Below are positions 1,644 through 16,174 of a stretch of DNA of 64,000 nucleotides, one piece after another. This DNA comes from an uncultured Victivallis sp. GTDB taxonomy: Bacteria > Verrucomicrobiota > Lentisphaeria > Victivallales > Victivallaceae. The notes under the pieces were generated by a model. The model was given only the letters and a program-made list of their open reading frames with translations, had not been told where the DNA came from and searched no databases. Positions within the stretch are counted from its first letter, which is position 1, and every line of letters starts with the position of its first letter. The stretch covers positions 1 to 64,000 of the forward strand of contig CALXOE010000007.1 in the NCBI GenBank assembly GCA_944389935.1. Direction: 5' to 3'. The position numbers were made by a program, and so were the translations under genes.

Positions 1644-3089
1644 ATGCCAATGAATTTCATATCCTCCGGCCTGCAGGCGATCCGGAATTTGAAGCTGCAA
1701 AACGGGGAATTTCTCCTGATTAAGGAAATTCCCTCTTCCTCTCCCGGCCGGGCAGACGCTCCGCCCCGCCATATCCTCGTCAAAATCCGGCTGAATCCGG
1801 TGGCGCGATCCAATATTTTCATTGAAATCCGACTGCCGGAACCGGAACTGTGGAATGGGCGTTTCCTCGGGCTCGGAAACGGCGGCGCGGCCGGCAGCAT
1901 CAATCCCGCCATCTTCACTCAACCGCTCTGGGACGGTTACGCAGCGGCATCGACCGATCTTGGAACTTCGCCCGACCCGGATTCCGGAATCGGCAATCCG
2001 GAAGTATGGCGGGATTTCGGTTATCGGGCGACTCATTTCATGACTGTGACGGCGAAAGAAATTATACAGGCCTATTATGGACGCGGCCCGGAGTTTTCCT
2101 ATTTCAGCGGCTGCTCCACGGGCGGGCAGCAGGCGCTTCAGGAAGCACAACGCTATCCGGAGGATTATGATGGAATCCTCGCCCGGCTCCCCGCCCACTG
2201 CCGTACGCCGCTGCACGCCTATTTTCTCTGGAACTTCCAGATTCTTCAGAAATGTCCATTCTCCGCAGAACAGGAAGCGAACGTAATCGCCGCCGGAAAT
2301 GAATACATGGCTCCCCGGGAAATTCCCATGGTCGCGGGAAAAATCATCTCCGATCCGCGCTGTACGCCGGCAGACATCGAGGCGGTCGTTGCGCTTGCGA
2401 TGAAAAAGGATGCCTCTTTGACCCCCGAACACGCGGAGGCGCTGCGCCTTCTCTTCGGCGGCCCCGTCCATGCGGCGACCGGGGAGCGCATCTTCGACGG
2501 CATCCCGTTCGGAAGCTCGTTCGACATCGCCCGCGGAAACCTCTATTTGTTCCGCTGGGTATTCGGGAAAGAACGGGATTTGATGACCATCAACTTCGCA
2601 GGAGACATCGACACCTACACCGCCGAACTCGGCCCCCTGCTGAACGCCGAAAATCCCGACCTGAGCCGCTTTGAACAGCATGGCGGGAAACTCATCATCA
2701 CTTCCGGCTCCGCAGACTCCTGCGTCCCCTATCATGCGACACTCGACTATTATGAACGGGCCGCGGAAGCCGTCGGCTCACTCGAACATTTGCGGGAATT
2801 CTGCCTTTTCTACCTCATTCCGGGTATGAGTCACGGCCCCGGACCGGGCGTCAACCAATTGCCGGACCTGCTGAATCTCCTGACTCGCTGGCGGGAAAAT
2901 GCGGAATTTCCCGGCACACTGGCCGGAGAACGGCTCGAAGATGACCGACTGATTTTTCAGCTGCCCATCGCTCCCTACCCGGAAAAAATCGTGCTGGACG
3001 AAAAAAACGGAGAACCGAAAGCCATTTCCGGCCCGCGCGGCGGCGTGAACCGCATCGCCCAACGCTTCCTCCCCCCGGCCGGAGAGTAG
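1644..3089 (+). CDS. Tannase/feruloyl esterase family protein
   Basis: An alpha/beta hydrolase of the tannase family (481 residues), expected to hydrolyse aromatic-acid esters of sugars such as galloyl or feruloyl esters. The nucleophile elbow is GCSTGG (S158). A likely acid is D358 in GSADSCVP, and the likely catalytic histidine is H397 in GMSHGPGP. Family members usually carry a cysteine beside both the serine and the histidine, forming a disulfide (CS-D-HC). Here C157 is present but the residue after H397 is glycine. No signal peptide is visible, so the protein appears cytoplasmic, which is unusual because many homologues are exported. AAGGAG precedes the ATG by 7 bases. It appears to be a single-gene unit. 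Confidence 0.82.
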   Translation: MPMNFISSGLQAIRNLKLQNGEFLLIKEIPSSSPGRADAPPRHILVKIRLNPVARSNIFIEIRLPEPELWNGRFLGLGNGGAAGSINPAIFTQPLWDGYAAASTDLGTSPDPDSGIGNPEVWRDFGYRATHFMTVTAKEIIQAYYGRGPEFSYFSGCSTGGQQALQEAQRYPEDYDGILARLPAHCRTPLHAYFLWNFQILQKCPFSAEQEANVIAAGNEYMAPREIPMVAGKIISDPRCTPADIEAVVALAMKKDASLTPEHAEALRLLFGGPVHAATGERIFDGIPFGSSFDIARGNLYLFRWVFGKERDLMTINFAGDIDTYTAELGPLLNAENPDLSRFEQHGGKLIITSGSADSCVPYHATLDYYERAAEAVGSLEHLREFCLFYLIPGMSHGPGPGVNQLPDLLNLLTRWRENAEFPGTLAGERLEDDRLIFQLPIAPYPEKIVLDEKNGEPKAISGPRGGVNRIAQRFLPPAGE

Positions 3090-3112
3090 CACGGCTCCCC
3101 CCCGGAAACGTT

Positions 3113-4675
3113 CTACTCCGGGGCCGTCAACCGGGGGACGTCCGCCGGTTTCCCGGCATGAAGCGGCTCATCGAGTTTAAACATCCAGCCGTCCGGACAT
3201 TCAAATACCGGAACGTACCCGTACAGGTAGAGCCGCTGGGCCGCGATCTCCCCCTCGCGGGAAATCCAGAGCCAGCGGCTGCCGATCAGCCGTTGCAGTT
3301 TATCCGGCGAAGTGAATTTCACGCCGCGCCGCAGATCCTCGAGAACCAGCATCGGTTCCCGATACCTCCCCGCGGCAAACATCGGATCAAGCCCACATAA
3401 AAAACGATACTCCGGCAGCGTGTAGATCAGCTGCGGAAAATCTCCCCAGCTCAAGTGTCCAATCACACTGCCGGGCGGAATTCCCCGTGCATGCACCCAC
3501 TCCGCGAGATCCCGGTAAGGATTCCAGACCTCTTTTGCCGCCTGCCGGAAATAACCGGCGCTCCACAATACCGCCGCAACCGCATAAGCCGTGCAGACGC
3601 GGCGTACCACTGTCCGCCGATCAAGCGGTCGCTCCCATGCCGCCAATGCCACAGTCAGCGCCAGCACCCCATACTCCGCCATCCGGAAATAGAGGCACAA
3701 CCCGATCCCCGTCCCGATCCCGAGAATCGAAAGAAACAACAATTCACGGCCGATCCTGCGGCAACTCTTCAGCCGCATCGCCACAATCCACGCCGCCAAC
3801 AGCGGCAGCGCCAGCAGAAACGGCGCACATTTGAGCGTATCCCATCCTCCGCTCGTGAGCTCACTGCCGCCAATCGGACCGGAGCCGGGCGAAAGCATCC
3901 CCCATACCACTTCCAATCCCTGAATCTTCCAGATCAGAAAACTGTTCGGAAACTGCGGATGCAGTGTAAGAGCCACAGCAACCCCGACCAGAGAAACCAC
4001 GGGAAGCAGCAACGCACGCCACTCCCGATCCGCGATCACCGCTGCCAGCGCAAACGCACCCGCCGGCATCAGCACAAAATGCGGATTGCTGTAACAGTAG
4101 CCGAACGCCAGACCCGCGAGGAAAAATGTCAGCCATTTTCTCCAGCCGCGCATCAACGCCGGCGTGCAGAACGCAGCCGTCGTCAACGCAAACAACGTAA
4201 TGGCAAGCACATGCGGACGGAGTGCCATAAGCCGTTCCGTCAGCGGCGGCGACAATACCGCAAAAAGCATCGTCCAACGCCAGACTCCCCGCACCCCCAG
4301 GCGCAACAGCAGGACCGCAACCGCCACCAACAGCAGAAGCATCAGAAATGCGCTCTGAAGATGAAAGGGGGGCACGTTGTCCACCCCCAAAAGCCCGCCG
4401 CACCGAAAAACACTCCACAACAGCAGATGAAATCCGAGCTCCTTATCGCTGAAATTCTCCTGCCACACCGACATCGTCGTTGACGGAAACTGTTTTGCCG
4501 CAAAAACTTCCGGTCCAGATTCCGCCATGATCGCATGATAGAACGAATCCCGGTCGGATTCGCCGCCGCAACAGACGGAATAAATCCGCACGGCCAACAG
4601 AAACGCCAGCGGCAGAAGAATTGCCGCAACCGCCTCCCGCAGCCGGAATCGTCGAAACTTCATCCTGTTCAACAT
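3113..4675 (-). CDS. Polytopic membrane protein, GT-C-like
   Basis: A 520-residue protein with about ten to twelve hydrophobic segments and a soluble C-terminus. After the first membrane helix comes an acidic loop (GGESDRDSFYH), the place where GT-C glycosyltransferases (PMT/ArnT type) keep catalytic acidic residues. The periplasmic tail (IGHLSWGDFPQLIY, LCGLDPMF) also resembles that group. A role in transferring sugars from lipid carriers is inference; the substrate is unknown. The start at 4675 is preferred over upstream codons because GGAGG precedes it and because it avoids overlap with the phosphatase gene, which ends at 4699. The two genes probably form an operon. Confidence 0.65.
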   Translation of the reverse strand: MLNRMKFRRFRLREAVAAILLPLAFLLAVRIYSVCCGGESDRDSFYHAIMAESGPEVFAAKQFPSTTMSVWQENFSDKELGFHLLLWSVFRCGGLLGVDNVPPFHLQSAFLMLLLLVAVAVLLLRLGVRGVWRWTMLFAVLSPPLTERLMALRPHVLAITLFALTTAAFCTPALMRGWRKWLTFFLAGLAFGYCYSNPHFVLMPAGAFALAAVIADREWRALLLPVVSLVGVAVALTLHPQFPNSFLIWKIQGLEVVWGMLSPGSGPIGGSELTSGGWDTLKCAPFLLALPLLAAWIVAMRLKSCRRIGRELLFLSILGIGTGIGLCLYFRMAEYGVLALTVALAAWERPLDRRTVVRRVCTAYAVAAVLWSAGYFRQAAKEVWNPYRDLAEWVHARGIPPGSVIGHLSWGDFPQLIYTLPEYRFLCGLDPMFAAGRYREPMLVLEDLRRGVKFTSPDKLQRLIGSRWLWISREGEIAAQRLYLYGYVPVFECPDGWMFKLDEPLHAGKPADVPRLTAPE

Positions 4676-4698
4676 GCGCCCTCCGGCATTGTCCTCAA

Positions 4699-5331
4699 TC
4701 AGTATCCACCCGCGCGCGAGAGCAAATCGCTGACATGGCTGATATCGTTCCAGGTTCCGAGCTGCCAGCAGCCGTCCGTGTGCAGAATCCGACTCAACGA
4801 GACATTCCCGACCTGGGGCTGGCGCGGCAGCGGCGCTGTGATGCCGAGGATGTGTTTGAACATCCCGCGCATCACCCCGCAGTGCGTCACAACCAGAATC
4901 CTTTTCCCGCACTCCCGCACGACCAGTTCATCGAGAAAACGATTGACCCGCTCATAAGCCTCCTCTTTCGACTCTCCACCCGTGATCGGACAGGGCGAGT
5001 GGTCGTGCAGAAATGCGTCGACCTCACCCGGGTAGAGCCGCTTCACCTCATCGAACGGCCTGCCGACCCAATCCCCGAGATCCCACTCCCGAAGCTCTTT
5101 CGACGGAATCACCTCCGCATACGGTGCGGCAATCCGCGCCGTCCGCATCGCCCGGTCCAGATCGCTTGCGTAAACCGCGTCAAACCGCATCTCTTTCAGC
5201 CGCTCCGCGAGCCGTGCCGCCTGTGCCAACCCCTTTTCATTCAGGGGAACATTGCTCTGCCCCTGCACGATATTCCGACTGTTCGCCGCCGTCTCTCCAT
5301 GACGGACCAGATAAATTTCCGTCGTAGCCAT
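4699..5331 (-). CDS. Histidine phosphatase family protein
   Basis: A branch-1 histidine phosphatase of phosphoglycerate mutase/CobC type, 210 residues. The RHG motif is in YLVRHGETAAN near the N-terminus; the second catalytic histidine is in VVTHCGVMRG; the substrate-side glutamate is in LREWDLGDW. The substrate cannot be read from sequence; alpha-ribazole phosphate, phosphoglycerate and sugar phosphates are all handled by the family. The start at 5331 (MATTEIYLVRHGE) has GGAG and GGGGCAGG upstream and matches family N-termini. The gene is just downstream of the ATPase terminator and 23 bases ahead of the GT-C-like gene. Confidence 0.85.
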   Translation of the reverse strand: MATTEIYLVRHGETAANSRNIVQGQSNVPLNEKGLAQAARLAERLKEMRFDAVYASDLDRAMRTARIAAPYAEVIPSKELREWDLGDWVGRPFDEVKRLYPGEVDAFLHDHSPCPITGGESKEEAYERVNRFLDELVVRECGKRILVVTHCGVMRGMFKHILGITAPLPRQPQVGNVSLSRILHTDGCWQLGTWNDISHVSDLLSRAGGY

Positions 5332-12022: not shown

Positions 12023-13864
12023 TCAGCGCTCGTCCGGCAGTTCGACGAACCGGACAGCAGGAGCGGCTTCGTAAGTTACGCCACGATATGGAAAAGAGAT
12101 CGTCTCGTCGGAAGTGCTCCAGAACACAAGCACCCGCCCGCCATCCTCTCGATCGAACAGCAGCACCTGCACTGGGGACGGAACGTCGGCAACCCGTCCC
12201 GAGAACCGGGGGGCACGGCCGAGGGCGGCACTCATTTCCCGGTAGGCGAAATAAGCGGGTTTCGGTTCATAATTCCAGCGTACGATGCCGAAGTTGTCCT
12301 CTCGTTCAGACGGGTTGTCGCCATCGCTGTGGAAATCGTAGAAGTAGACTCTCTCAACTCCAGCGGCGAGGTAGGAGAGATAGAGCGTCTGCAGCAGATG
12401 TGCCTGCTCCGCCTCGGCAAATCCGCCCGCAAACTGGATGGTGCAGCCGAGGATCGCGCCGCGTCGTTCTCGAAACGTATAGAGTGCGATTCCGTCACCG
12501 ACGGCTTTTCCGGTGTGATCGAGAACCTGAACCAGCGGGGTGTATTCATCCCCTTCCGCGACATTCGCGGCGTTGAGAAACCGGGTGACATAGACATTTT
12601 TGAGATCCCTGATTCCGGCCTCTTTCCCGGTGGCGGTCGTAAGGGTTCGACTGGCGGATTTCGGGATGTCGGGTTTCGTCCACCACGCCTGATAACCGAT
12701 CCCGTAATAAGGGTGGAGTTCTCCGGCCGCACTGCGGCTTGACCAGTTCCCCTGCTCATTGCGATAGCGGACGTAATAGAACGGCACTTCGCCGAAGGCG
12801 AGCAGAATCCCGCCTTTTTTCACATATTCCAGCATCGGCTCTTTGTAAGACTCCTCGATGGCGGTGTGTTCGCAGCCGAGAAAAACCGGCAGTTTCTCCG
12901 GATCGGCTTCTGCCAGTTCCTCCGGTGTGACCGGAATAAGTTTCGCCCCCGGCAGCCAGTTGCGGGACGGCTCGAAATCGCGATCCGGATGCTCCCGGGA
13001 AACCGGCGCCCCGACGACCAGCTGCTGCGGCAGCTTCCGCCCGATCTTCCGCGCCGCCGCGCCGATCGCCCTGATGAGCACATCGGGCTGTTGCGCAATC
13101 AGATTGCTGCGGTTGGTTGCGCCGCCGCACTCCGTGATCCAGAGCGCACACGCCCCATCGCCATGGTCGGCCAGAACCGTCTTGAACTCCTCCATGCGTT
13201 TCCGCTGAAACGCGCTGCGGTCGACTCCCCATCCGTAGGGGTGAACCGCGATCGCATCGAAATACCCCTTTGCGCCGGCGGCATACATATCGCGCAGATA
13301 TCCAACGTTCCACCCGCACAGGCCGCCGACCATCACGACGTTCTCAGGATCAGCCGCCTTGAGCTCCTCGTATGCGATTTTCAGCAGCGGTACGAACTGC
13401 GCGGCGTTCGGATCGGGTTTCCAGAATCCGCCGTCCGGTTCGTTCCAGATCTCCCAGACTTTCAACTTCCCTCTGTAATGCCGGGCGCAGGCGCGGACGA
13501 AAGCACGCCACTCTTCCGGATGCCGGTAAAGCGGAACCACATCCGGGCGGATTTTGTCGACTTCCCAGTCATACCCCTCGAGGATCGGCAGATATTCTAT
13601 CCCATATTGATCGAGTTTTTCCAGAAGCTCATCGTAGCTGCTGAAATCGTACTGTCCCTTTTTCGCGGCAATTCGCGAAAATTTCATGTCGTGCCGCAGC
13701 GAAGTCATCCCTGCGTCCCGCATCATCCCGAGCTGGCGGTCGATGTTCTCCCACTCTTTCGCGGCATGCGGATGGGCGGCGATCCCCCACGGAGAATCCG
13801 TCCCGGCGCAAATCACAGCCGTGCCCAGCAAAACCGCAGCGGCTAATGTCTTCCATGTTTTCAT
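12023..13864 (-). CDS. Clan-A glycoside hydrolase with nested domain
   Basis: A secreted protein of 613 residues with a signal peptide (about 1-20). The N-terminal (beta/alpha)8 barrel shows the acid/base E142 in WEIWNEPDG and a likely nucleophile E245 in LWITECGG, the arrangement of clan GH-A (GH39- or GH5-like). After E245 the barrel is interrupted. Residues about 276-480 form a separate Rossmann/flavodoxin-like segment (QLVVGAP, VFLGCEHTAIEE, KKGGILLAFGEVP), and the last barrel helix and strand return at about 485-512 (QAHLLQTLYLSYLA, RVYFYDF). A small beta domain ends the protein. Substrate is unknown. It is the third gene of a unit with a regulator and a pseudopilin, 27 bases after the pseudopilin. 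Confidence 0.78.
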   Translation of the reverse strand: MKTWKTLAAAVLLGTAVICAGTDSPWGIAAHPHAAKEWENIDRQLGMMRDAGMTSLRHDMKFSRIAAKKGQYDFSSYDELLEKLDQYGIEYLPILEGYDWEVDKIRPDVVPLYRHPEEWRAFVRACARHYRGKLKVWEIWNEPDGGFWKPDPNAAQFVPLLKIAYEELKAADPENVVMVGGLCGWNVGYLRDMYAAGAKGYFDAIAVHPYGWGVDRSAFQRKRMEEFKTVLADHGDGACALWITECGGATNRSNLIAQQPDVLIRAIGAAARKIGRKLPQQLVVGAPVSREHPDRDFEPSRNWLPGAKLIPVTPEELAEADPEKLPVFLGCEHTAIEESYKEPMLEYVKKGGILLAFGEVPFYYVRYRNEQGNWSSRSAAGELHPYYGIGYQAWWTKPDIPKSASRTLTTATGKEAGIRDLKNVYVTRFLNAANVAEGDEYTPLVQVLDHTGKAVGDGIALYTFRERRGAILGCTIQFAGGFAEAEQAHLLQTLYLSYLAAGVERVYFYDFHSDGDNPSEREDNFGIVRWNYEPKPAYFAYREMSAALGRAPRFSGRVADVPSPVQVLLFDREDGGRVLVFWSTSDETISFPYRGVTYEAAPAVRFVELPDER

Positions 13865-13891: not shown

Positions 13892-15091
13892 TCACAAACT
13901 GCGCAGCTCAAGCTGCTGCGTAACCACCTTCCGGACCTGCATGACGCTGTCGCGCAATTCCGTCGAATTCATCGATGCGGTATGTCCGTCCATGAACGAG
14001 AGGTTCGCCCGGTTACGGTGCCCGAGCCAGATTCCGGAATTCTGACCGCCGCTCGGCACCCCGACTCCATTGCTGGTGTGACTGTACTGATTGATCCCGC
14101 GCGGAACCTTGAACCAGTCCCCCGAACCGTACTGTGCGGTGTCGGCATACACATGCAGCTGGCTCGGGCAGCGCGCCTTGTTCAACATGTAAAACAGGTT
14201 TGAGGAATTGATGAAATTCATATAGACTCCTGTGCGGTCCGTATTGTTCGTATAACTCGAATCCCAGGTGCCCACGTACATGCCGTTGGTCTGCCATGCG
14301 TCAAAGTGGCCGCTGTCCGCTCCATTATGAAACGGACAGACGAAAATCTTCTTGCTGCCGGGTGAAATGTAACTCGCAAACTTGCTGTCCAGCGTATAAT
14401 CCCAGTTCGGTGACGCATTCAACTTCACCCCCATGAGCGCCTCCGAGAAAGGACGTCCCATCGTATTGACCACCATCCGCCCGTTGTTGTCGTTCGAGTA
14501 CATGAGCTGTGCGGCGATCACCTGCTTGTGATTGCCTACGCATTTCGCCTCTTTCGCCCGGTCACGCGCCTGGTTCAATGCTGGCAGCAGCATCGAGGCC
14601 AGAATCGCGATGATCGCAATCACCACGAGGAGCTCGATAAGCGTAAATGCCGCTTTTCTCGTCGCAGAGCCGTGGGCTTTGACCGTTGCATGGTCGTGGG
14701 AGGCAGGGGGCGTGTCCGCCGCCCCCCGCACCCCCGGCGTCCGGCAAGGTGCCGGTGCCGCGTACGGGTCGGAGTCGGACTCGGCTGCGGTCGGCCGGCA
14801 CGGGGAGAAAGAGCCGCAAAAACACGAAGCAATCTTCCCGCTTTTCTGCGGAAAGATTGCTTCGCGTTTTTGCTCCACTTCGCCGCTTGCCGAGCGGAAA
14901 CTCTGTTGCGGGGCGATGATCGGCCGATGAGAAGTTTGACAGGTGTTCGGTACGGGGCGAGACGCGGCTTCCCCGACCGCTTTCTCTCCCCCGAACCCCT
15001 CTCTTGACTGCCCGGTGCAAGCGTGGAAGGAACGGTACATTTGACAAGCTTTTACCATAAGAAATTCAATCAATGTGCAATAACGTCTCAT
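13892..15091 (-). CDS. Pseudopilin-like H-X9-DG protein with long insert
   Basis: From the ATG at 15091, placed behind an excellent AGGGAGG site, the protein has 399 residues. It begins [16 protein letters not shown], a degenerate prepilin motif, then about 132 residues of Pro/Ser/Arg/Ala-rich sequence, then a complete type IV prepilin N-terminus (A148/F149, [12 protein letters not shown]153). The rest is the usual body, ending in H-X9-DG ([15 protein letters not shown]). No in-frame ATG, GTG or TTG lies just before the intact motif, so translation must cross the insert unless processing removes it. The cleavage site has alanine rather than glycine at -1. Function is unknown; homologous pseudopilins are surface or periplasmic. 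It sits between a GntR-type regulator and a glycosidase. Confidence 0.8.
14648..15043 (-). other. 396-nt in-frame insert between two prepilin motifs
   Basis: The segment separates codons for [11 protein letters not shown] (residues 6-16) from [12 protein letters not shown] (149-160). It is very GC-rich, nearly free of stops in several frames on both strands, and rich in inverted repeats. These include the 26-bp hairpin at 14816-14873, the pair GTGCCGG (14749-14755) with CCGGCAC (14795-14801), and CCGGCA-AGG-TGCCGG near 14741. Its ends coincide with the duplicated TLIE motif, as expected for an element inserted at or duplicating that site. Mobility is inference; no transposase or terminal repeats were recognised. 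Confidence 0.55.
14816..14873 (-). repeat. 26-bp inverted repeat, sense-strand RNA hairpin
   Basis: Arms 14816-14841 and 14848-14873 flank a 6-nt loop. The two arms differ at two positions. On the coding-sense RNA both become G-U pairs, giving an unbroken 26-bp stem, while on the antisense RNA they would be A-C mismatches. Confidence 0.85.
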
Positions 15092-15106
15092 TTCTCCTCC
15101 CTCGTT

Positions 15107-16174
15107 TTATTGTGGGAAGCCGATGTTTTTTACGGTATTGCCCTGGTGGATCTCTGTCGGAACAATATGGAACATCGGAGTGTTTTCTTTATGCTCAAAA
15201 TAATCTTTCACCAGACGCACCGCATAAGAAACCACAAGATCGCGGCGGGTATTGATTCTGGTAATGTCCTCACCGGCTTTATGCCCCGCCCGACCGAGCG
15301 AAATCAAACTGAAATCACGGGGAATCTCAAGACCACACTCATTCGCTGCCCGGATGACCTCCCGTGCCGGAAACATCGACACCACGAACAATCCCGTAAA
15401 ACCAGGCTTCGGATGTTCTGAGAGATATTGTTTGAAGAACTCGTAACTGCGCAATGGCGAGGACTCCCCGATCTCAATATGTGGATGCAGCACTTCCACT
15501 TCCACACCGCACGCCCGGGCACATTTCAGAAAACCATCGAGCCGCTGCCGGATCACCGTCACTTCCGGTTCAGACACCAGGATCCCCAACTTCCGGTGGC
15601 CGTTCATCAGCAGATACGTTGCGGCCAGTACCCCGCTGAACTCGTTGTCGCCATCCACGTAACGGCAACCTCCCACACTCACTGTCCCGTAAGTGATGAT
15701 AACCGGCATCGGCTGCGCCATAATCCGGTTGAGCTGTTCCGGGGTAATCTTCTCGTGCGCGTAAGGAATGAACAATACCGCGTCGGCTTTGAGCTTCGGA
15801 AGCATTGCCACTCCCGACGCATTGTCCGGCATATCCACCAGCGACGATTCAAAACCGGCCTTCTCCGCCTCTTCTTTCAGAAGAGAAGAGAGCTCTTCCG
15901 AATAATCTGCAATATCGGACGGAGTCAGGCAGACTATTTTCCGGTAACGCGGCTCCCGCCGGACAAAATAACCGCGACGCTCCTGCGCTTCCAGCACCCC
16001 CGTCTCACAAAGCCGCTCCATCGCCTGCTTGACCGTGATCTGGCTGACATTGAATTCATCCATAATCTGACGGACGGAAAGAAATCTCTCCCCGGCACGA
16101 AATTGCAGGCAGCGTGCCGTCAAATGCTGCGTCAACTGATCCGCACGATTGAAGCGTATATTGTTCTGTACCAT
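15107..16174 (-). CDS. GntR-family regulator with LacI-like sensor
   Basis: 355 residues. An N-terminal GntR-type winged helix (about 5-75: LSVRQIMDEFNVSQITVKQAMERL, GVLEAQERRGYFV) is fused to a periplasmic-binding-protein/LacI-like effector domain (about 78-350; YRKIVCLTP, GHRKLGILVSE, FTGLFVVSMFPAREVI). This AraR-like architecture usually senses a sugar. It is first in a unit with the pseudopilin (15-base gap) and the glycosidase, so it probably controls them and itself through the operator at 16185-16205. Confidence 0.88.
   Translation of the reverse strand: MVQNNIRFNRADQLTQHLTARCLQFRAGERFLSVRQIMDEFNVSQITVKQAMERLCETGVLEAQERRGYFVRREPRYRKIVCLTPSDIADYSEELSSLLKEEAEKAGFESSLVDMPDNASGVAMLPKLKADAVLFIPYAHEKITPEQLNRIMAQPMPVIITYGTVSVGGCRYVDGDNEFSGVLAATYLLMNGHRKLGILVSEPEVTVIRQRLDGFLKCARACGVEVEVLHPHIEIGESSPLRSYEFFKQYLSEHPKPGFTGLFVVSMFPAREVIRAANECGLEIPRDFSLISLGRAGHKAGEDITRINTRRDLVVSYAVRLVKDYFEHKENTPMFHIVPTEIHQGNTVKNIGFPQ

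Follow-up and report, generated by a model that had tools for sequence, protein, structure and literature searches.

The window, by which we mean the whole stretch of 64,000 nucleotides analysed here (positions 1 to 64,000 of contig CALXOE010000007.1, from assembly GCA_944389935.1 of an uncultured Victivallis sp.), carries a prepilin-type gene on its minus strand (13892..15091), whose 399-codon frame runs from an ATG at 15091, behind GGGAGGAG, to 13892 and is preceded by the ribosome-binding region GAGGGAGGAGAA (15092..15103). This gene contains two copies of the prepilin motif, which start at 15079 and 14647 and are thus 432 nt apart from start to start. The first (CTLIEFLM, 15056..15079) is native and decayed, while the second (FTLIELLVV, 14621..14647), the first codons of which are of a type typical of the insert (TTT ACG CT.), leads into the pilin part of the gene (13895..14646). 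Between the two lies a cassette (14648..15055, minus strand) that is a mosaic of palindromic modules with one open frame, is found in many copies, and begins with a left arm (GTAAAAGCTTGTCAAATGTACC, 15034..15055) resembling the left end of a recombinase element. One of its modules (14796..14892) is self-complementary, as seen from a self-inverted blastn match, and forms a 26-pair hairpin when folded as RNA. An earlier note on this DNA had described an in-frame insert between a decayed and an intact prepilin motif, which is what we find, although the 396 nt given there for its length should read 408 nt between the motifs. Codon 7 of the second motif (GTG, 14624..14626) deserves mention since, by homology, it marks the position where, or close to where, recombinase elements elsewhere are joined to the pilin genes of other genomes; no such element is present at the window gene itself. 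By eye, the upstream neighbour (15107-16174) looks like a GntR/LacI-type regulator and the downstream neighbour (12023-13864) like a secreted enzyme, and several prepilin-motif genes similarly have as neighbours an enzyme-like gene and a regulator resembling LacI or GntR. Prepilin-motif genes are numerous (about 120 in the own genome, G000, and 143 in G002, an uncultured Victivallis MAG), and represent a large expansion without a clear explanation here.

Family searches recognise only the second motif of the window protein as a prepilin signal. Pfam N_methyl (PF07963) matches residues 145-169 with 29.0 bits (cut-off 21.2) and TIGR02532 matches residues 147-169. In a structure prediction that reached a mean pLDDT of only 50 with 14 sequences, residues 12-146 have a pLDDT <50 and a long helix is predicted from residue 151, at the second motif, with a pLDDT near 90 at the helix start. 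As for the history of the insert, the pilin part has relatives in G002 (97% identical), G004 (80%) and G005 (42%). The G002 orthologue has a cassette at the same point, behind nearly the same decayed first motif (TWIEFLM), and the insertion at this gene therefore predates the split between G000 and G002. The site is empty, with no insert, in the G004 and G005 homologues.

The segment is not the single-copy sequence, conserved in syntenic orthologues, that would have made a mobile element doubtful. The blastn search proposed in the earlier note, for repeats ending at FTLIELL codons, was positive: 14640-15091 gave 89 matches in its own genome, which, merged by hand, come down to 40 places, counting the window. 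A prepilin motif follows the cassette in 28 of these 40, the contig ends before that point in seven, and the motif has been lost in five (L022, L024, L040, L043 and L044). When motifs on either side are considered, intact or decayed, 33 of the 40 places have one, and six of the seven others abut a contig end. Across 61 genomes (own included), matches were found in eight, that is, many cassette copies in G000, G002 and G007 (Victivallis vadensis DSM 14823), one match in G035, and weaker or short matches in G004, G005, G006 and G051. Copies in G007 are 75-77% identical at the nucleotide level and occupy the same site. Judged from sequence, these comparisons demonstrate a dispersed cassette of about 0.4 kb at a fixed point, codons 7-8 of the motif, in many of the roughly 120 prepilin genes, and at the same prepilin-motif site in three species. 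The G035 cassette (L052, contig C58), which comes from another genus, has motif and junction letters identical to those of a V. vadensis copy (L064, G007 C26), and this suggests recent transfer or contamination.

A full copy opens with a start codon and a few residues, followed by the first motif, the left arm (GTGAAAACTTGTCAAATATACC or one of its variants), the mosaic of palindromic modules, a short basic stretch usually ending in KAA, the second motif and the pilin. The stretch before the AAF of the second motif is basic and resembles a prepilin leader. The only arm is the left one, the right end being the first half of the motif, and no second inverted arm was seen in the cassettes. Modules duplicate and drop out among copies, and the hairpin-forming one described above (14796..14892) is missing from some as an in-frame deletion. 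The first motif is exactly FTLIELLV in four of the 17 readable own copies, a set that omits at least four more decayed ones (L024, L031, L039 and L100), and the second is exactly FTLIELLV in 25 of the 28 own inserted genes, which is partly so by construction as these genes were collected by that motif. Insertion has also been serial, a cassette lying inside the second motif of an earlier insertion in L035, L050, L058, L073 and L075. In two further places (L010 and L026), what comes after the second motif of the cassette, at the contig end, is a left end of another kind (ACTACTTGTTAAATATACGTTT or nearly so), which is also seen behind a native motif in G000 C9, G005 C77 and G007 C50; the arm behind the cassette's own motif in L010 and L026 is of the recombinase type. 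A single duplication and fusion of one prepilin gene, which the earlier note had offered as an alternative and which a gene with two motif copies readily brings to mind, is hardly credible when about 40 places hold the same cassette, homologous sites are empty and insertions are serial, and we consider it refuted by copy number.

The reading frame is mostly maintained across these insertions. Of 25 measured spacings between the two motifs, which come in a dozen different lengths, 24 are divisible by three, L019 (407 nt) being the sole exception. These 25 omit copies with a first motif that could not be placed as well as L026, which is also out of frame (394 nt) and has no pilin behind. All 29 scored cores are open in frame, for which they were picked, and their other frames are often open too (+1 in 22, +2 in 19, -0 in 23). 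The insert is GC-rich and low in stops, as described previously, but it is low in stops in several frames, and an open frame alone is therefore weak evidence. A chance open frame is insufficient as an explanation, yet a real caveat given how many other frames are open. In core alignments, dN/dS in frame 0 is 0.97 within the own genome, 0.78 within G002, 0.54 within G007 and 0.71-0.95 between species, while shifted frames give 0.67-1.46 overall (0.75 and 1.09 within the own genome). We read this as a frame that is kept without clear selection on the cassette peptide, selection on which is unsupported in the own genome and only weakly hinted at within G007 and between species. A dN/dS close to 1 offers no hint of a function for the insert peptide, and because its amino acids are nearly neutral, the cassette looks like tolerated, translated selfish DNA.

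A different view would be that the cassette is an adopted leader, maintained by selection, with hairpins or a peptide that control pilin expression or slow it down. It would account for the strong RNA structure of the whole window cassette (z -4.25), for a cassette at the window gene that is common to two species, for the maintained frame, and for the values of dN/dS below 1 within G007 and between species. We nevertheless find it improbable, since within the own genome the dN/dS of frame 0 lies between those of the shifted frames, modules are freely lost and duplicated, 80 of the 108 scored prepilin genes do without a cassette, and no Rfam family matches the window cassette at the gathering score.

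The earlier note saw no start codon near the second motif copy, and this holds, since the closest in-frame ATG is 131 codons before that motif, with a weak Shine-Dalgarno sequence, and, among all types of start codon, the closest whose Shine-Dalgarno match reaches at least 4 is the upstream ATG, 148 codons before it. A start with a Shine-Dalgarno match was found for 18 of the 28 inserted genes, at a median of 148 codons upstream of the motif (lower quartile 63), most of the other ten being cut by a contig end, and for 78 of the 80 uninserted genes, at a median of only six codons. If the cassette were merely a new 5' untranslated stretch, with translation starting inside it near the second motif, these distances would be hard to understand, the window gene has no ATG within 130 codons, and there would be no reason for a spacing in multiples of three. 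Possible exceptions are L046, with an ATG 17 codons before the motif, and L038, with a GTG 32 codons before it, each having a Shine-Dalgarno match of 4, whereas the GTG of L013 is rightly placed and has no such match. We regard an internal start, as a general account, as very improbable.

The codons of the second motif tell which part of it belongs to the cassette. They were compared between 28 own prepilin genes with a cassette and 80 without, that is, 108 of 120 matches, the rest having not been retrieved, having failed the motif pattern, or duplicating another gene in the first 80 residues; a text pattern applied to the upstream frame decided which genes counted as inserted, and decayed insertions may therefore be among the uninserted. 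The Thr codon of the second motif is ACG in 28 of 28 inserted genes and in six of 80 uninserted ones (Fisher p 2e-20, which overstates independence since the copies are related). GAG at codon 4 and CTC at codon 5 are each found in 26 of 28 inserted genes, vs 39 and 25 of 80 uninserted ones, and the two sets agree from codon 9 onward. Because usage differs before that point and agrees from there on, the left part of the second motif must travel with the cassette, while the right part is native. First-motif copies have ACG in 5 of 17, which is somewhat above the uninserted genes (p 0.02). In G002, the Thr codon is ACC in nine of ten inserted and seven of 27 uninserted genes, in a sample of 37 of the 143 matches that comprises the cassette matches and the best-scoring ones. 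Since the second motif begins inside the right end of the cassette, in codons peculiar to the cassette, it amounts to a replacement signal, and the proposal of the earlier note, an element that enters prepilin codons and supplies such a signal, is supported as far as sequence can tell. A pure target-site duplication is not a full account, the first codons of the second motif being of cassette type and those of the first motif of native type. There may be a short duplicated stretch in codons 3-7, GAA CTT being common to both sides in L019; both sides of L012 have GTT as codon 7, and the base of crossover is not clean.

What the earlier note did not foresee is that cassettes swap sequence and that their insertion site is common to a large-serine-recombinase element. 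Swapping is apparent at the window gene, where the left half of the cassette is closest to the G002 orthologue (88%) and the right half is up to 98% identical to other own cassettes, vs 93% over a shorter stretch for the orthologue, the second motif of which reads ACA where the window gene has ACG. As its right half is nearer to own cassettes than to the orthologue, cassettes or their right halves have been exchanged within the genome. Gene conversion has thus taken place, and could alone make the second-motif codons uniform. This leads to the most substantial of the alternatives, in which homologous recombination between prepilin genes, via the flanking motif and helix codons, spread one ancient insertion, perhaps made by a recombinase. 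The mosaic structure of the window cassette, the uniformity of right ends within each species and an own assembly devoid of the recombinase all fit. However, the left side offers no more than about 24 nt of homology, and still the first-motif copies keep a native appearance as far as codon 7; on the right, the signature of the cassette gives out at codons 7-8, though the conserved tract runs about 60 nt further. Both cassette borders thus lie near the recombinase insertion point, and we hold spread by gene conversion from one insertion to be possible, albeit rather unlikely.

The recombinase genes themselves were seen in other genomes. In G002 C14 and G007 C19, large serine recombinase genes lie directly beside the recombinase-type arm noted above, in inverted orientation, with a pilin gene next. 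A scan of one genome per species, using an alignment of five such proteins and two peptide patterns, identified 30 loci, of which 28 are labelled Lentisphaerae or below, one Clostridia and one uncultured bacterium. The Clostridia-labelled locus (L273, CALVMH010000051.1) has a recombinase and a pilin half like those of Lentisphaerae, and its label is perhaps a binning error. In 22 of the 30 loci (21 found by script and L298 by eye), and in 20 of the 25 that remain when query members are set aside, a pilin gene interrupted near codon 7 lies no more than about 180 bp from the recombinase start. All eight loci with no such junction within the searched stretch (L284, L287, L289-L293 and L295) share 28-43% identity with the query. 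The right junction was tabulated for 21 loci and lies around codon 7, in keeping with an element that joins its target at one fixed core without duplicating more of the target. L281 alone displays both junctions; the two motif halves there surround an element of about 1.84 kb holding the recombinase, and by eye its two ends are not evidently inverted repeats of each other. Where elements have an arm in common (e.g. L276, L297 and L299), they agree up to the base before codon 7 and are host-specific thereafter. Several other recombinase loci have unrelated arms, several right ends are without an ACAAGT arm, and the border of L283 is ambiguous. Left ends (G000 C9, G005 C77 and G007 C50) match right ends (G002 C14 and G007 C19) as inverted repeats, but these belong to different elements. 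Resolvase and Recombinase domains score above cut-off in all five proteins, while a zinc ribbon was found in three (two of them below the curated cut-off), and not in L267 or the truncated L270. A sequence comparison with solved structures gave no match to the recombinase at E 0.01, and no relatives were confirmed in viral contigs.

In the own assembly, there were no matches to this prepilin-site recombinase family. Own contigs C20 and C73 break off inside the left end of a recombinase element, and the end of C84 is only a few bases away from one. The gene on contig C9 has a stop after the prepilin start and then a gene on the other strand; a large cargo insertion was considered there, for which no right end was found, and the locus was treated as a remnant. 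A recombinase tail beside the arm on contig C17 was likewise rejected as an autonomous element, its closest relatives being tails of another recombinase type. Some loci in other genomes merit separate mention. In G002 C6 (L267/L284), a gene with NUMOD3 and a weak GIY-YIG match (5836-6522 of L267) lies between the recombinase and the pilin half. In V. vadensis (L270, G007 C19), a TraG/VirD4-type conjugation coupling protein (2865-4826) is encoded right behind the truncated prepilin-site recombinase, and conjugative elements may use the prepilin site too. In L227/L292 (G006 C128), a prepilin start is cut at codon 7 by a different arm (GACAGTGCTAAGTAAACC) near another recombinase, which is perhaps a second arm type at this site.

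The likeness between cassettes and elements lies in their left ends. In examples of both, seven bases separate the GT of codon 7 from ACTTGT, namely GGTGAAA in own cassettes, GAACACA in a G007 cassette, and GAATACT, GGTTACT and GAGGACT in element left ends, an equality of spacing that is partly by construction because the junction pattern permitted 6-8 bases. The left end of the cassette therefore resembles that of some recombinase elements in letters and in GT spacing. The reading that we favour, and consider probable, is that of a non-autonomous cassette tied to a recombinase homing on prepilin codons, with later exchange between cassettes.

Under the reading of a recombinase-tied cassette, the prepilin motif site would serve as attB for a large serine recombinase. 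A circular cassette, with the junction ...FTLIELL-GT-GGTGAAAACTTGTC..., would recombine with the GT in codon 7 or 8 of a prepilin motif, giving a product made of the native first half and arm, the cassette, and a cassette-borne first half joined to the native second half. The gene would regain a complete signal in frame, the site would be reusable, and homologous recombination would later exchange sequence between cassettes. Ribosomes would read from the old start through the cassette, and cleavage by prepilin peptidase would be expected at the second motif, so that the cassette peptide would come off as a long leader. Against this scheme, the reaction would be an attL-like by attB one, and not the textbook attP by attB, as the cassette has a left arm only and a motif half at its right end. 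As the recombinase is absent from the own assembly, the enzyme would either reside in an unassembled repeat or cassettes would now move only by homologous exchange. The broader proposal, to which we give a little less than an even chance, is that a lineage of Lentisphaerae serine recombinases took the codons of the prepilin signal as attachment site, which would offer >100 landing sites per genome, with a translated cassette riding the same reaction. Each insertion would rebuild the signal in frame and regenerate the site, permitting stacking and recombination, and the peptide would be disposed of by the prepilin peptidase of the host. The outcome would be a cassette system that occupies the N-termini of a whole family of surface proteins.

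If true, this would have implications reaching beyond one gene, since (i) the secretion signal of a large gene family would be a mass landing site, where insertions repair their own damage and host processing removes the resulting peptide, (ii) the leader length that a prepilin peptidase handles and the evolution of recombinase specificity for conserved codons would become testable, and (iii) a recombinase inserting at many near-identical natural sites would be of interest as a tool. The long N-terminal extensions in a share of the predicted pilins of these genomes are insertion products and not domains. In the open-licence literature on Victivallis/Lentisphaerae pilins and on large serine recombinases, we found no report of prepilin-directed recombinases or of such cassettes.

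Known systems each display part of this picture. Site-specific and multi-targeting large serine recombinases have been described, with conserved targets inside coding sequence, and DNA competence genes, which might include pilin-like genes, are enriched among their targets; in the main text, the word 'pilin' is absent (PMC10083194). The elements found here share the Resolvase and Recombinase domains and the disruption of target genes at a fixed site. They differ in that their target consists of the signal codons of a family of >100 genes per genome and in that a translated, non-autonomous cassette is found at the same site. Like a MITE, the cassette is small, occurs in many copies and looks like an autonomous element at one of its ends. 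A MITE would have terminal inverted repeats and a target-site duplication, whereas here only one end matches. The direct repeat at the ends of the cassette is the prepilin motif itself, the copies of which differ (ACG in every downstream copy, vs a minority of upstream ones). Nor does the cassette match the recombinase element at both ends, as a derivative of it should, its left arm being similar and its right end being a motif half.

The integrative element SXT, which inserts in prfC, brings a replacement 5' coding sequence for its target gene. It has one target gene and an enzyme of a class other than the serine recombinase found here, whereas the present case involves many paralogous targets and a 0.4-kb cassette that is read through in frame.

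The nearest in-frame selfish DNA that we found described, as far as the sources considered go, is that of the Rickettsia palindromic elements (RPE), small palindromic repeats that lie in frame in protein-coding genes and are apparently tolerated (PMC10969869). The cassette is likewise multi-copy, palindromic and in frame inside genes, with no clear selection on its peptide. RPE are about 150 bp long and found in unrelated genes, whereas the cassette is about 400 bp long, is found in one gene family at one codon position, brings a second secretion signal, and shares its site with a recombinase element. By these traits it behaves as an RPE does, though we do not class it among them. PARCEL repeats, which are also palindromic and translated, diversify membrane and surface proteins, and the portion of their description that we compare with (PMC2996958) mentions no fixed insertion point in a signal sequence. 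Taken with these precedents, the prepilin cassette would be a new combination of two known ideas, in-frame selfish DNA and integrases that target conserved coding sequence.
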